64,000 nt of DNA from Streptomyces sp. I05A-00742 (GTDB lineage: Bacteria; Actinomycetota; Actinomycetes; Streptomycetales; Streptomycetaceae): assembly GCF_013055795.1 (NCBI RefSeq), contig NZ_JABETO010000010.1, positions 126,215 through 190,214 on the forward strand, read 5' to 3'. Every line of letters begins with the position of its first letter. Positions within the stretch are counted from its first letter, which is position 1. The notes below the pieces were generated by a model that did no database searches, was not told where the DNA came from, and saw only the letters and a program-made list of their open reading frames with translations. Positions 4,107 to 10,597 of this stretch are shown one piece after another. A program made the position numbers and the translations under genes.

Positions 4107-5144
4107 ATGGAGAGCGTCCGGATGTACCGCACCGCACCACTCGGTAAGCGGCCGCGCTGGTGGACCGAACTGCCGCTGATCGCCGCCGTCTACGCGATGT
4201 ACTCGGCAGGCCGCCTGCTCGTCCGGGGTGACGAGGCATCCGCAGTCGATCACGGTCTGTCCATACTCGACTTCGAGAAGCAGTTCCGAATAAATTTCGA
4301 GAGCCCGCTCAACCGGCTGTTCACGGAGCACGCGAGCCTCGGCGTCCCCGCGGACTTCGCGTACGCCTCCCTGCACTACATCCTCACCCCGGCCGTCCTC
4401 GTCTGGATGTTCCGGCGCCGCCCGGAGCACTACCGCCGGGTCAGGACCTGGCTGATGACCTCCACACTCATCGGCCTGGTGGGCTTCACCCTCCTGCCCA
4501 CCTGCCCGCCCCGCCTCCTCGACGACGTGTACGGCTTTCGCGACACCATGGAGCAGTACTCCGCGTACGGCTGGTGGGGCGGCGAGGCCAGCGCGCCGCG
4601 CGGCCTCGGCGGGCTCACCAACCAGTTCGCGGCCATGCCGAGCCTGCATGTCGGCTGGGCCCTGTGGTGCGGCGTCGTGCTGTGGCGGTACGGGCGCGGC
4701 CCGTTGTCGAAGATCATCGGCGTGGCGTACCCGCTCGCCATCACGCTCGTGGTCATGGGCACCGCCAACCACTACTTCCTGGACGCCGTCGCCGGTGTCG
4801 CCGTCATGGGCGTCGGCCTCCTGCTGACCCGGCCCGCGCTGCGGCTCGGCGAGCGGATCCGCGGCCGGTCCCCCCGGTCCCTGCCGTCCCTCGACACCGT
4901 CCGGCCGGCGGAATCGCCGGAGACCCCGGCGATTGTCAGTGGCGGATGCGAGACTTCGCCAGGTACTGCGCGCCCGCGCCGGACCGCTCCCGGCACGCCC
5001 GTCGGGGCCGGCCTGCCGGGTGCGCCGGAGAGACAGCGCGAGGCGGACGGCAGTGACCACATCCCTTCGGAACTCCCCCGGCAGGCGACCCGCGAAGGAG
5101 CCGGCGACAGCCGGCCCGACGGCGCTCCGGCAGCGGCTCACTGA
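4107..5144 (+). CDS. PAP2 / inositol phosphorylceramide synthase-like membrane protein
   Basis: This multi-pass membrane protein of about 345 residues belongs to the PAP2-like lipid phosphatase/transferase superfamily, in the branch related to inositol phosphorylceramide synthase. Visible motifs are [19 protein letters not shown] (motif with the SxH centre) and [14 protein letters not shown], which supplies the third-motif histidine and aspartate. The alternative ATG at 4122 ([14 protein letters not shown]) is also reasonable. The last 100 or so residues are hydrophilic and disordered, and the coding end overlaps the next gene by 92 bases. It probably moves or removes a phospholipid head group at the membrane. 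Confidence 0.8.
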
Positions 5145-6258
5145 GCTGCGCGGCCCGGCCGTCGCGGCGCGCCCGCTCGACGCGCGCGCCCTGGCGGCCC
5201 TGGCCGCCAACCCCGGCTGCCGCCGCCGCGCCCTGCTCGACGGCGCCGGGGTCGACAAGGCGGCGCTCGCCCAGGCCCTCGGCACGCCGGCCGCGTTCGG
5301 CCAGTCGCAGTTCGCCATCGCCCGCGGCAACGCCTTCGAGGCCCGCGTCAAGGCCGACGGCGGTGCCGAGCTCGTCCGGCTGCTGCGCGCGGCGCTCCCC
5401 GCCGAAGAGGCGGCCGAACCCCCGGAGTCCGTCGGCGCCCCCGACCTCTCCGCCGCCGGCCCCGAGGGCCGCACCGCCCGCACCGCCCTGGCCCTGCGCG
5501 ACGCCACGGCGGCCGGGCGCTGGACGGTGCTCGACCACCCCCTGCTGGCGCTCACCGTCGCCGGCACCCCGGCCTACCTGGAGCCGGACGCCGTCGTCGT
5601 CCACCCGGACGGCACCTGGACCGTGGTCGAGATCAAGTCCTTCGCCATGATCGACGGCTCGGCCGACGCCGCGAAGGCCGGGGCCGCGGCCCGCCAGGCG
5701 GCGGTCTACGCGCTCGCCCTGGAGACGGTCGCCGACCGGCTGCCGGGGCCCGCCCCCGAAGGCGGCCGGGTGCGCCACCGGGCGCTGCTCGTCTGCCCGA
5801 AGGACTTCTCCAACCTGCCGGCCGGCGCGCTCCTCGACCTCCGCAAGCAGCGGGCCACCACCCGCCGCCAGCTCGGCCGGCTGACCCGCGTCGAGGAGAT
5901 CGCCGCCGCCCTCCCGCCCGGCACCACGTTCGACCCGGACCGCCCCGCGGCGGAGCTGACCGCCGCCGTCGAGGCGGTCGACGCCGCGTACGCGCCGGAC
6001 TGCCTCGCCGCCTGCGAGCTTGCCTTCCACTGCCGCGACCGGGCCCGGGAGGCGGGCGAGGTCGGGCACCTGGGCCGGGCGGTCCGCTCCGGGCTGGGCG
6101 GGCTCACCACGGTCGGGGAGGTCCTCGCCGCGGCCCAAGGGCAGGACGCCTCCGACGACCCCGCCGTCGCCGCCCTCCGCCGGGCCGCCGCCCTGCGGGC
6201 CGAGGCCCTGGCGTGCGCGGGCGGGCAACGGCCCGGGAGCGGGGCGGCATGTCGCTGA
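5053..6258 (+). CDS. RecB/Cas4-like PD-(D/E)XK nuclease with four-cysteine Fe-S pattern
   Basis: The GTG start at 5053 gives 401 residues. The nuclease core is clear: ARGNAFEARVK (acidic helix near residue 92), LEPDAVVV with Asp179, and VVEIKSF with Glu193 and Lys195, together the PD-(D/E)XK triad. Four cysteines are placed as in Fe-S nucleases (Cas4, AddB, Dna2): Cys56 in NPGCRRRALL before the core, and Cys317, Cys321 and Cys327 in CLAACELAFHC after it. The family cleaves DNA ends or flaps and often partners a helicase. The helicase at 7814-9223 is in the same operon, and the stop overlaps the next start by 10 bases. The Fe-S cluster is inferred from spacing. Confidence 0.8.
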   Translation: MTTSLRNSPGRRPAKEPATAGPTALRQRLTELRGPAVAARPLDARALAALAANPGCRRRALLDGAGVDKAALAQALGTPAAFGQSQFAIARGNAFEARVKADGGAELVRLLRAALPAEEAAEPPESVGAPDLSAAGPEGRTARTALALRDATAAGRWTVLDHPLLALTVAGTPAYLEPDAVVVHPDGTWTVVEIKSFAMIDGSADAAKAGAAARQAAVYALALETVADRLPGPAPEGGRVRHRALLVCPKDFSNLPAGALLDLRKQRATTRRQLGRLTRVEEIAAALPPGTTFDPDRPAAELTAAVEAVDAAYAPDCLAACELAFHCRDRAREAGEVGHLGRAVRSGLGGLTTVGEVLAAAQGQDASDDPAVAALRRAAALRAEALACAGGQRPGSGAACR

Positions 6259-7817
6259 TCACCTCGCTCGCCCGGCTGGAGGCGCTGCACGCCGGCCGCG
6301 CCCGCCCCCTCGCCACCGTCCGCCACCGGCACCTCTCCGAGCGGCCGCTCGTCCTCGTCCCCCTGACCACCTCCGGCGAGACGGGCGCGCCGCTCGGCGC
6401 CCTCGTCGGCACCGACCGGGACGCGCCGCGCCTGCTGACCGTCCCCCAGCCGCGCGACCGCACCCTGCGGTTCACCTTCCTCGCGGAGCTCGCCGAGGCG
6501 GTGCTGCCGTATGTGGAGGGGTATGCGGACGACACGGTGACCGAGGAGCGCAAGGAGACCGACCCGGCGACCGGCCGCAGGACGACCGTCGAGGCCGAGC
6601 TGTGCGCGGACGCCCCGCAACTGCTCGTCCCCGGCCCGGCGGCGGTGGAGTACGTGCGGCTGCTCGGCCGGTCCATGCGCTTCCGGCGCACCGCCGAGGA
6701 GGACCCGTCCGCCGACTGGCCCGCGCCGCCCCGCGTCCCGCTGCTCGGCCGCTGGTTCACCCACTACGGGGAGCGGGCCCACATCCCCGGCACCTCCCTG
6801 CTGCTCCCCGTGACCCAGCTGCTGTCCCGGCACTGGGCCACCGGCCAGAGCCACCTGGAGGACCAGCACCTGGGTGCCCTGCTGGCCTGGATCGACCCGC
6901 CCGAGGGCAGCACCGGCCAGGAGGCGGCCCGGCAGGCCGAGACGGCGCGCGACACCGACGGGCTGCTGCTCCACCCTCCCGCCGGGCCCGCCACCGACCC
7001 GGCGTTCGACAACAAGCTGCTGGCACCCGCCATCGCCCGCTACGACCGCGCCCGCACCGCGGTACTGGAGACCGGTCGCGGAAACGCCGCGCTGCGCGCC
7101 GCCGACACCGGCATACGCGCCCTGCTCGAAGCGCAGCTGCGCCCGACCTGGGACGCCGTGTGGCGCGGCGTCGACCTGCTGCGCGCCCTCCCCGAGGCGG
7201 CCTCGGTCCCCGAGCGGTGGAAGCGCGACCGCTGGTCGTACACCGGCCACCGCGACCGGCTGCGGGCCGGCGAGCCGCCGCAGCCGCGCCGGGACGACGC
7301 GGTCACCGCTGCGCGCAAGCTCGCCGCCCGGGAGACCGCCCAGGCCCGGCTGGACGCGCGGGAGGCACTGGACGATCCGCTGGTCATGGCCGGGCGGCGG
7401 CTGGCGGGCGAGGCGTTCGCCGGGGAGGTCGCCGAGGTGGTCATGGCGTACTCGGAGGCGAAGGTCCCGCGCCCGCGCCCGCTCGTCACCGTCCGCACGG
7501 AGGACACGCCGCTGCTGGAGGACGGCGTCCGGGTGCACCGCGTACTGGCCGACGGCCGGGCGCAGACCGGTGAGTTCGTGGCGGCCGGTCCGGACGGGCT
7601 CACCGTCCGGCTGACCGGCGGCATGGGCCGCGGCAAGGTCCCCGACGAGGGGTCGGTGCCCGCGCCCGGTGATCATGTGTGCTGGACCCTGTTCGACCCC
7701 GTGCCCAGGGGCGGCCCGGAGCTGCCCGACCCCGAGCGGACGCCTTGGACCCACGGCGGCCCGCCGGGCGCCCCGGCCGAGGAGCCCGACCCGGTGACCG
7801 CGGAGGACTACCTGTGA
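6249..7817 (+). CDS. Unknown middle protein of nuclease-helicase operon
   Basis: The ATG at 6249 lies within the end of the nuclease gene and gives 522 residues; the stop TGA shares bases with the GTG of the helicase gene, so the three genes are surely co-translated. I recognise no domain. The N-terminal third is mixed alpha/beta, the middle (about residues 230-400) is helical and arginine-rich, and the last 100 residues (RPLVTVRTEDTPLLEDGVRV, then GEFVAAGPDGLTVRLTGG) look like a small beta-barrel. Position suggests a nucleic-acid-binding or bridging subunit between nuclease and helicase. That is inference from context only. Confidence 0.75.
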   Translation: MSLITSLARLEALHAGRARPLATVRHRHLSERPLVLVPLTTSGETGAPLGALVGTDRDAPRLLTVPQPRDRTLRFTFLAELAEAVLPYVEGYADDTVTEERKETDPATGRRTTVEAELCADAPQLLVPGPAAVEYVRLLGRSMRFRRTAEEDPSADWPAPPRVPLLGRWFTHYGERAHIPGTSLLLPVTQLLSRHWATGQSHLEDQHLGALLAWIDPPEGSTGQEAARQAETARDTDGLLLHPPAGPATDPAFDNKLLAPAIARYDRARTAVLETGRGNAALRAADTGIRALLEAQLRPTWDAVWRGVDLLRALPEAASVPERWKRDRWSYTGHRDRLRAGEPPQPRRDDAVTAARKLAARETAQARLDAREALDDPLVMAGRRLAGEAFAGEVAEVVMAYSEAKVPRPRPLVTVRTEDTPLLEDGVRVHRVLADGRAQTGEFVAAGPDGLTVRLTGGMGRGKVPDEGSVPAPGDHVCWTLFDPVPRGGPELPDPERTPWTHGGPPGAPAEEPDPVTAEDYL

Positions 7818-9223
7818 GCCAGGACATCGCCCCGCGCGGGCCGGCGCCGGAGCCGCCCGCCTTCGACCCGCCCTCGTTCGATCCGTCCGCCTTCGATCCG
7901 TCCGCCGCCGCGGCCGCCGCCACGGACGCGATCCTGCGCGACACCCTCGACGGCCGCCACCGCGGCGTCGTCGTCGACTCGCCGCCCGGCGCCGGCAAGT
8001 CGACGCTGGTCGTCCGGGCCGCCCTGGAGCTCGCCCGGGCCGGCCGCCCGCTGATGGTCGTCGCCCAGACCAACGCCCAGGTGGACGACCTGGTGCTGCG
8101 CCTCGCCGAGCAGGACCCCGAGCTCCCGGTCGGCCGGCTGCACAGCAGCGACCCGCAGCCGTACGACCCGGCGCTGGACGGCCTGGACCGGGTGATGACC
8201 TCCACGAAGGCCGCGGAGCTCGCCGGGCTGGACGTGGTGGTCTCCACCGCCGCGAAGTGGGCCCACACCAAGGTCGCCGAGCCCTGGGGCCAGGCGATCG
8301 TCGACGAGGCGTACCAAATGCGCTCGGACGCGCTGCTGGCCGTGGCGGGGCTGTTCGACCGGGCGCTGTTCGTCGGCGATCCGGGCCAGCTCGACCCGTT
8401 CAGCGTGGTGGGGGCCGAGGGGACGGCCCAGTGGGCCGGGCTGTCGTACGACCCGTCGGTGAGCGCGGTGAGCACGCTCCTCGCCCACAACCCCGGGCTG
8501 CCGCAGCACCGGCTGCCGGTCTCCTGGCGGCTCCCGGCGTCCGCCGCCCGGCTGGTCTCCGACGCGTTCTACCCGTACACGCGCTTCCGCAGCGGCACCG
8601 ACCACGGCGACCGACTGCTGGCCTTCGGCGTCCGACCGGACGGTTCCGCGGTGGACCGGGTGCTGGACGAGGCCGCCGCCTCGGGGTGGGGGCTGCTGGA
8701 GCTGCCCGAGCGGCACGTGCCGCGCACCGACCCGGAGGCGGTCGAGGCGGTGGCCCTGGTGGTGCGCCGGATGCTCGACCGGGGCGGTGCCGTGACCAGC
8801 GAGCGCTCCCCCGACGCCGTACCGCTCACCCCCGCCCGGATCGCCGTGGGCACCGCCCACCGGGACCAGGCGGCCGCCGTCCGGGCGGCCCTCGCGGGGC
8901 ACGGCGTGAGCGGCGTCACGGTGGACACCGCCAACCGGCTCCAGGGCCGCGAGTTCGACCTCACCGTGATCCTGCACCCGCTCTCCGGCCGCCCCGACGC
9001 GACCGCCTTCCACCTGGAGACGGGCCGGCTGTGCGTCCTGGCCTCCCGCCACCGGCACGCCTGCGTGGTGGTGTGCCGCGCGGGCGTGGACCGGCTGCTG
9101 GACGAGCACCCGTCGACGGAGCCGGTGCGGCTGGGGGTGGCGGTGAAGTTCCCGGATGGTTGGGAGGCGAACTTCGCGGTGCTCACCCACCTGAGCGAGC
9201 ACCGGGTGCGATGGCGACCCTGA
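7814..9223 (+). CDS. SF1 helicase, UPF1/Dna2-like
   Basis: This 469-residue protein has the superfamily 1B helicase motifs in order: Walker A DSPPGAGKSTL (Lys62), motif Ia VVAQTNAQVDDL, Walker B AIVDEAYQM (Asp164, Glu165), motif III FVGDPGQLDPF, motif V VDTANRLQGREFDLTV and motif VI LCVLASRHRHACVVV. The N-terminal 35 residues are a low-complexity FDP-rich segment. The GTG start overlaps the preceding stop as GTGA. With the Fe-S nuclease encoded upstream it reconstitutes the two activities of eukaryotic Dna2 in separate chains. Its C-terminal 24 codons are duplicated downstream. A role in DNA-end processing, repair or defence is inferred. Confidence 0.85.
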   Translation: MSQDIAPRGPAPEPPAFDPPSFDPSAFDPSAAAAAATDAILRDTLDGRHRGVVVDSPPGAGKSTLVVRAALELARAGRPLMVVAQTNAQVDDLVLRLAEQDPELPVGRLHSSDPQPYDPALDGLDRVMTSTKAAELAGLDVVVSTAAKWAHTKVAEPWGQAIVDEAYQMRSDALLAVAGLFDRALFVGDPGQLDPFSVVGAEGTAQWAGLSYDPSVSAVSTLLAHNPGLPQHRLPVSWRLPASAARLVSDAFYPYTRFRSGTDHGDRLLAFGVRPDGSAVDRVLDEAAASGWGLLELPERHVPRTDPEAVEAVALVVRRMLDRGGAVTSERSPDAVPLTPARIAVGTAHRDQAAAVRAALAGHGVSGVTVDTANRLQGREFDLTVILHPLSGRPDATAFHLETGRLCVLASRHRHACVVVCRAGVDRLLDEHPSTEPVRLGVAVKFPDGWEANFAVLTHLSEHRVRWRP

Positions 9224-9418
9224 CCAGCGGACGCCCGCCAAGCCGCCGCCCCGCCCGCCGGACGGAGTCCGGCACACCGCCGGAGGCGGCCGACGGATAC
9301 AGCCCGGATGGCTGGGAGGCGAACTTCGCGGTACTCACCCACCTGAGCGAGCACCGGGTGCGATGGCGACCCTGACCAGCACACGACCACCAACCCGCCA
9401 CCCCGCCCGCCGGAGGCG
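9151..9418 (+). repeat. Tandem duplication of helicase 3' end (period 152)
   Basis: Bases 9151 onward (coding for the helicase C-terminus DGWEANFAVLTHLSEHRVRW plus stop) recur 152 bases later from 9303, nearly unchanged through the stop codon and partly beyond it. Because 152 is not a multiple of three, the second copy is in another frame; a 54-codon frame starting ATG at 9211 reads into it and ends with the same peptide at 9375. The differences that I see inside the coding repeat are synonymous third-position changes (ggt/ggc, gtg/gta). Whether the second copy is translated is unknown. Confidence 0.85.
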
Positions 9419-10024: not shown

Positions 10025-10597
10025 ATGAACTCCAGGCCACGCGATCCGCACCCCACCCGCTCCCCGCAGCCGCCCGTCCAGGTCGCGCCCGCCGGTGCCG
10101 ACTGGCTCGCCTCGGCCAGTCCGTTCCCCCGCAGCGTCCTGGCACTGTGGTCGGACAACCCGCGGACGACCCTGGTGCTGCCCTGCGGGCGGGCGTTCGA
10201 CGTGATCGGCGTTCCGTCGCTGTTCGGCCGCCGGATGCTCGACCGGCTGTGGTCGGCCGGGCCCGGCTCCGGCCCGGTGGCCGCCCAGCAGGGCCGGCTC
10301 CTGCTGTTCGCCGCCCCCGGGACGGCGCAGCGGCTGCCGGCGCTGCTGCGCTGGGAGGAGTGGGCCCGGGCCATTCCTCCCCTGCTGTGTCTGGGGACGG
10401 GCGACGCCGTGACCGTCCCCCCGCTGTATCCGCCGGACGAGACCGAGCCGACACCGCCCACGGCGCGCTGGGTGGTCGCCCCGGACGTCCGCCATCCGTG
10501 GCTGCCGGGGCCCGACACCCTGCTCTGGGCCTGCGTCCGTACCGCCCGTTCCGGTCTCAAACATACGGATTTTCTTTCCACCGGATCAGGGTGCTAG
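10025..10597 (+). CDS. Prim-pol-like hypothetical protein
   Basis: This 190-residue protein resembles Streptomyces proteins usually named bifunctional DNA primase/polymerase, with the order LVLPCGRAFDVIGVPSLFG, GPVAAQQGRLLLFAAPGTA and ARWVVAPDVRHPWLPGPD. I see no DxD or other metal site expected of an active polymerase, so it is probably a non-catalytic relative or only fold-related. It shares its feature order with the protein at 1011-1448. The coding end runs into the promoter of the tRNA-Lys gene, whose -10 box lies at the last codons. Function unknown. Confidence 0.6.
   Translation: MNSRPRDPHPTRSPQPPVQVAPAGADWLASASPFPRSVLALWSDNPRTTLVLPCGRAFDVIGVPSLFGRRMLDRLWSAGPGSGPVAAQQGRLLLFAAPGTAQRLPALLRWEEWARAIPPLLCLGTGDAVTVPPLYPPDETEPTPPTARWVVAPDVRHPWLPGPDTLLWACVRTARSGLKHTDFLSTGSGC

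Follow-up and report, generated by a model that had tools for sequence, protein, structure and literature searches.

Architecture of the three-gene locus

We analyzed a 64,000-nucleotide stretch of DNA from Streptomyces sp. I05A-00742 (RefSeq assembly GCF_013055795.1, contig NZ_JABETO010000010.1, positions 126,215 to 190,214; hereafter the window), which carries three overlapping genes, here called nuc, mid and hel. They probably encode a damage-inducible, three-subunit, Dna2-like helicase-nuclease that processes DNA ends and serves as a core repair system in Streptomyces. The host genome is 7.1 Mb in size. A preliminary description had placed the trio at 5053-9223, and its coordinates, its overlaps (10 bases between nuc and mid, 4 bases between mid and hel) and its reading frames were correct on recheck (Table 1). 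In plasmid and public records the three products are annotated as hypothetical protein, hypothetical protein and AAA ATPase, respectively.

Table 1. Features of the nuc-mid-hel locus (positions in the window)
Feature	Position	Strand	Remark
Putative RecA-NDp/PafBC-type promoter element, TTGTCAGTG-N8-GAGACT	4933..4955	+	~100 nucleotides before first start codon
nuc (gene 1)	5053..6258	+	Predicted PD-(D/E)XK nuclease of the iron-sulfur cluster (Cas4/AddB/Dna2) kind, 401 amino acids
Cys56, first cysteine of presumed iron-sulfur staple	5218..5220	+	Invariant (32/32)
Catalytic core D179 ... E193-x-K195	5587..5637	+	Kept in all copies except clade B
C317-x3-C321-x5-C327	6001..6033	+	Invariant (32/32)
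mid (gene 2)	6249..7817	+	Protein of 522 amino acids between nuclease and helicase
mid residues 31-330, predicted DEDD (DnaQ-like) 3'-5' exonuclease-like fold	6339..7238	+	Structural match of model
mid residues 349-495, predicted stalk and 1B beta-barrel of UPF1/Dna2-type helicase	7293..7733	+	Structural match of model
hel (gene 3)	7814..9223	+	SF1B helicase core, RecA domains 1A and 2A, no barrel of its own
Tandem copy of last ~70 bp of hel plus trailer	9303..9414	+	Original at 9151-9262; 93% over 112 nucleotides, period 152

An AlphaFold2 model of the nuc product, built from a 30-sequence alignment with a predicted local distance difference test score (pLDDT) of 88, matched Cas4 (Z 10.9), RecE (9.1), EXO5 (9.0), AdnA (8.4), AddB (7.8) and Dna2 (7.3 over 215 residues). 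Type I-C Cas4 was also among the structural neighbors, and the majority of rows in the list were PD-(D/E)XK proteins. The residues proposed earlier for the active site (Asp179, Glu193, Lys195) and for an iron-sulfur (Fe-S) cluster (Cys56, Cys317, Cys321, Cys327) are all present. In 32 homologs with identities down to 25%, the four cysteines are invariant, as the cluster proposal had demanded, and D179, E193 and K195 are kept in 30, 27 and 25 sequences, respectively, every loss falling within one paralogous clade (clade B, see below). With a fold that bears RecB-family decorations and with one N-terminal and three C-terminal cysteines around the core, the nuc product is predicted to be a PD-(D/E)XK nuclease of the Fe-S type, in which the cysteines would hold the cluster. 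It gave no match in NCBIfam and fell outside the TIGR03491 (TM0106) family; its profile found only weak matches among PDB sequences, to designed repeat proteins and sortases, which we judged to be composition-driven and discarded.

The hel product carries the full set of superfamily 1B (SF1B) helicase motifs, all of them invariant. The UPF1/Dna2-type assignment made previously was confirmed by matches to Pfam AAA_11/AAA_12 above cut-off and by a profile search against PDB, in which Dna2 came first (E 9e-15), followed by Upf1 (6e-11) and Ighmbp2 (7e-11). Walker A is located at residue 57, and the only ~56 residues ahead of it leave no room for the stalk and 1B barrel of UPF1/Dna2-like SF1B helicases. 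These elements are missing from the hel polypeptide, and a barrel of such fold is predicted in mid instead.

The middle protein had been described as having no recognizable domain. This is true at the level of profiles, since mid found nothing significant in Pfam, NCBIfam, PADLOC and PHROGs, and its alignment found nothing significant among PDB sequences, but its predicted fold shows a stalk and barrel. In an AlphaFold2 model from 9 sequences (pLDDT 77, predicted template-modeling score 0.62), residues 349-495 matched Ighmbp2 (4b3f, Z 9.9; 4b3g, Z 9.2, 2.3 Å over 87 residues) and Dna2 residues 461-568 (Z 7.3), and the Sen1 and Upf1 barrels ranked lower. We consider this modeled C-terminal match reasonably strong; it points to a stalk/beta-barrel of the Dna2/Ighmbp2 type, and no unrelated known enzyme was matched. 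The N-terminal match of the model (residues 31-330) is suggestive only: the closest structures were the exonuclease domain of PolB (Z 8.0, 168 residues, 3.5 Å) and Pol delta, T7 polymerase and RNase T (Z 7.0-7.8). The canonical DxE was not found, as the first strand reads LVLVPLT and the homolog alignment lacks a conserved acidic pair.

In the crystal structure of Dna2, the domain order is nuclease, stalk/barrel, 1A and 2A, and the single strand threads through the helicase, the barrel region and the nuclease tunnel (PMC4716839). Given the nuclease fold of nuc, the barrel of mid and the barrel-less 1A-2A core of hel, the gene order of the trio would thus equal the domain order of Dna2. Stalk, beta-barrel and SF1B RecA core are shared in the same order with Ighmbp2 and Upf1, and the Fe-S-type PD-(D/E)XK nuclease with Dna2. 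Unlike Dna2, the trio consists of three polypeptides, has an extra DEDD-like domain before the predicted stalk, and contains no N-terminal oligonucleotide-binding (OB) domain that we could recognize. Because the three genes are not fused, we call the system Dna2-like in architecture and not Dna2.

Close known parallels are the TM0106/TIGR03491 fusions of other actinobacteria, single proteins of 1,100-1,200 amino acids with the order nuclease, RNase_H_2, ~200 amino acids and AAA_11/AAA_12, most of whose nucleases carry CxxCx5C. Their helicase half is homologous to hel (99% hhalign match), whereas the trio is split in three and its other two products show no profile similarity to the fusions. 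We considered mid as a homolog of the RNase_H_2-plus-barrel part; the order is equal, hhalign gave no support, and we retain the likeness as an analogy only. TIGR03491 above cut-off was found neither in the Streptomyces sampled nor in the genome of the window. The preliminary description knew of no bacterial system of this composition, and we likewise found no published one in the literature searched, but the existence of single-polypeptide relatives with equal domain order makes the trio a split variant rather than a system without parallel. AdnAB, AddAB and RecBCD also bring a helicase and a RecB-family nuclease to DNA ends, and the nuclease domains of AdnA and AddB are among the structural neighbors of nuc. 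These enzymes have SF1A motors and a fused nuclease, in contrast to the UPF1/Dna2-like SF1B motor and the separate subunits of the trio.

Co-inheritance and a damage-type promoter

A mid homolog was detected in 378 of the 393 Streptomyces genomes sampled and in 187/198 genomes of the order, compared with 15/296 and 22/396 genomes in two samples across the phylum. Among the matches listed, the closest one, from Streptomyces huiliensis, is 90% identical. A contig scan for mid yielded at least 80 loci, nearly all from Streptomyces and one from Streptosporangium. The complete trio was found in the same order in every Streptomyces locus first checked, in Nonomuraea and in another family of the class, and again, at 20-34% identity, in L040 and L129, two distant relatives that belong to other families in the phylum. 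Overlaps between the genes were usually 4-11 bases in the loci compared. Nine genomes without mid also lacked nuc and had at most a short, weak match to hel; in two further genomes hel was displaced by ~36-50 kb but kept. The linkage of the three genes is far beyond chance. The recurrent order and the joint loss argue that the trio is a co-inherited system, and the expectation that the genes stay together in other genomes was borne out on both counts.

In one of the distant relatives, the gene following hel (L040:5759-7453) encodes a RecB-like nuclease plus RNase_H_2, i.e., the two halves of a TM0106-like protein without the helicase, with a CxxCx5C motif of its own. A divergent locus that is phage- or plasmid-like by gene content (L130) contains mid-like and hel genes and no nuclease that we recognized, which is consistent with mid and hel forming a motor unit. 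A viral origin of the system was considered and rejected, as mid and hel had no match in viral contigs or in the phage collection.

Upstream of nuc we found a candidate promoter of the RecA-NDp/PafBC type. RecA-NDp promoters belong to the LexA-independent damage response of actinobacteria, governed by PafBC in mycobacteria (PMC6789036); they precede DNA-damage genes in actinomycetes, including recA and the UV-inducible SCO6735 of S. coelicolor (PMC5087735). The element at 4933 is an exact match to TTGTCRGTG-N9-ANNNT. Compared with TTGTCRGTG-N8-TANNNT, the TTGTCAGTG half is exact and the spacing is correct, and the -10 half GAGACT deviates at the first base. TGTCRGTG precedes nuc at 78 of the 83 core loci (the Streptomyces copies to which the window copy belongs) vs. 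0/28 accessory or non-core loci. The motif appears to be conserved as DNA, since a coding reading would need the rare codons TCA, AGA and CTT. A TTG at 4933 was accordingly rejected as the true nuc start, even though the resulting MSVADARL... recurs in relatives: the stretch is the promoter motif with its rare codons, and an identical "LSV" read-through precedes recA and radA in the genome of the window.

A relaxed pattern gave 62 matches in this genome vs. 2 for a reversed control. Among the genes that follow the remaining sites are recA, uvrB, radA, a UvrD-type helicase, a DnaQ-like exonuclease, type II topoisomerase subunit A and DNA polymerase III delta' (holB). The 62-site set (loci L186-L215) is a clear RecA-NDp-type regulon. 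Finding such a motif before the trio is new here, and judged from the motif the trio would be induced by DNA damage.

Accessory copies and proposed function

In a tree of mid, the core copies and two further clades, A and B, are separate. Apart from the two genomes with displaced hel, each non-core copy tested in the class has an additional, fourth gene ahead of nuc, whose product of 240-325 amino acids combines a coiled-coil N-terminus with a conserved domain of unknown function. This gene is absent beside core copies and from the genome of the window. In clade A, SbcD adjoins the cassette in 11/11 fetched loci, and so does SbcC except in L138, where only the start of SbcD is visible. Both genes also stand beside two plasmid clade-A copies and with the diverged copy in L039. 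Wadjet type I (JetA-D by PADLOC) follows in six of these SbcCD-linked loci; it is a separate system, absent beside the window copy and some type-A copies. In the four finished replicons that carry a type-A copy, the cassette lies no more than ~15 kb from the replicon end, once in both terminal repeats. A recurrent island of SbcCD, the four-gene cassette and, in 3/4 loci, Wadjet is seen within ~15 kb of the ends in L126, L127, L134 and L136. A TtrA-like helicase gene occupies the very end in L136, and such a gene is found next to or near the type-A copy in L039 and L136.

Clade-B cassettes (L038, L145, L147-L151) are horizontally spread paralogs. Their nuc products all have K195R plus E193L or D179Q and retain the four cysteines, which suggests a structural role of the Fe-S domain.

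In other organisms, Mre11-Rad50 (SbcCD) opens blocked DNA ends so that Dna2-type resection can follow, and in archaea it is encoded in operons with the nuclease NurA and the motor HerA, a layout like that of the type-A cassette, although the nuclease and motor families are unrelated. Because of this end-opening role, SbcCD, which is fixed beside these copies whereas Wadjet is optional, is a better functional clue than position. Position alone is no proof of a telomere role, as Wadjet is enriched towards Streptomyces chromosome ends (PMC10482375).

We propose that the three products are subunits of one Dna2-like helicase-nuclease, split at the domain borders of Dna2: the nuclease (nuc), a stalk and beta-barrel on an inactive exonuclease-like domain (mid), and the RecA motor 1A-2A (hel). 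The motor would draw a single strand in the 5'-to-3' direction through the barrel of mid into the Fe-S nuclease tunnel, where the threaded strand would be degraded, so that a broken or blocked DNA end would be resected or trimmed. In Streptomyces, the core trio would be induced by DNA damage through its RecA-NDp/PafBC-type promoter, and the related accessory copies carry the fourth gene, one clade being paired with Mre11-Rad50, often with Wadjet, near the ends of linear replicons and probably acting on foreign or unprotected ends. The split-Dna2 interpretation of the preliminary description thus gained support from fold, gene order, co-inheritance and the damage-type promoter. A near-universal and apparently damage-controlled helicase-nuclease would be a missing component in Streptomyces, in which the linear chromosomes are unstable and the repair of breaks is understood only in part. 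Division of a Dna2 at the boundaries of its domains would also allow separate study of nuclease, barrel and motor.

Several points weigh against this proposal. UPF1-type helicases act on RNA too. Foldseek on its own found nothing for mid at E ≤ 0.001; the barrel match is Z 9-10 over 87-126 residues in a 9-sequence model, and chance arrangements can reach the Z of 7-8 seen for the exonuclease-like match. With hhalign, no profile alignment to the fused TM0106 proteins was obtained for nuc or for mid. The -10 half of the promoter, GAGACT or CAGACT, departs from TAnnnT, and one study reports a lack of conservation in S. venezuelae for the PafBC motif of mycobacteria (PMC9380542). Set against that study, the 62-site regulon suggests that the question of motif conservation merits reopening.

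More tentatively, and with less than even confidence, we suggest that Streptomyces may possess a bacterial counterpart of eukaryotic Mre11-Rad50/Dna2 resection, in which the damage-inducible core trio would be joined by six-gene cassettes (SbcC, SbcD, adaptor, nuclease, barrel protein and helicase) that process or police the ends of linear replicons. Cassettes with SbcCD and Wadjet suggest that DNA-end processing and defense share parts at replicon ends.

An alternative is that the system serves primarily in anti-phage or anti-plasmid defense and became fixed in Streptomyces, the nuclease-helicase degrading invading DNA. Accessory copies stand beside Wadjet type I (on plasmids and chromosomes) or beside DUF1156 and SNF2/NOV_C genes, and among the PADLOC-DB 2.0 anti-phage systems hel has matches, only weak and generic helicase ones, that include the Mokosh proteins MkoA/MkoC. 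On the other hand, nuc and mid have no match in that database, and the phage collection and viral contigs hold none for mid or hel. The defense-island setting envisaged in the preliminary description applies to accessory copies only: the window copy is a near-universal core locus (378/393 for mid) with no defense genes among its immediate neighbors, and its conserved damage-type promoter favors repair over defense. Defense as the primary function is therefore unlikely.

The trio could instead serve linear replicon ends in telomere replication, trimming or exchange, or in linear plasmid transfer. The terminal position of type-A copies in the four finished replicons fits this idea, as do the neighboring TtrA-like helicases, given that TtrA is a marker of replicon ends and that SLP2 depends on it for conjugation (PMC8743542), and the near-universal core copy in a genus with linear chromosomes. 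Yet the core copy is megabases away from the chromosome ends, Nonomuraea and other classes carry the genes too, and chromosome ends gather accessory genes generally, Wadjet being enriched there (PMC10482375); we regard an end-specific service as quite improbable. An RNA- or R-loop-directed machine with a structural nuclease, in keeping with the RNA-active relatives UPF1, Ighmbp2 and Sen1 (Ighmbp2 being the best match of the mid barrel, with Sen1 also listed) and with the B-clade nucleases devoid of catalytic residues, is very improbable, as the fold neighbors of nuc are DNA exonucleases, the first profile match of hel is Dna2, the promoter set is one of DNA repair, and the accessory copies are partnered with SbcCD and Wadjet.

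Neighboring genes and the 3' end of hel

In the window, the trio is preceded by a gene that reads as histidine-phosphatase-like from its sequence and by a PAP2 phosphatase gene; it is followed by genes for a 135-amino-acid protein of unknown nature, a 190-amino-acid Prim-Pol-domain protein and tRNA-Lys. The small, stand-alone Prim-Pol-domain protein (10025-10597; PF09250, E 6e-8) has similar-looking genes, judged by eye, downstream in other core loci. tRNA-Lys(ctt) occurs three times over 10 kb of the window (10615, 16655 and 21086). In S. olivoreticuli, an IS110-like transposase gene (L054:9650-11005) separates mid from a hel that seems intact.

The end of hel is variable in two ways. The repeat listed in Table 1 is probably a local duplication. 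Among 81 core Streptomyces loci, 11 carry repeats of the hel 3' end (the window, L043, L049, L054, L072, L081, L098, L103, L106, L108 and L118), with a period of 115-170 bp and 1-3 extra copies. An integration site was rejected as their origin, as no integrase was found downstream in the loci listed. The copies are mostly 90-99% alike inside one genome and different between genomes, as if repeatedly made. Separately, the conserved C-terminal tail of hel, ...PDGWEANHAVLAHLAEHRV..., is replaced in L045, L053 and L055 by another, mutually similar tail (...PDGWEAMMST[WL]D[HQ]WS[EG]HRV...), which suggests segmental exchange at the end of the gene.

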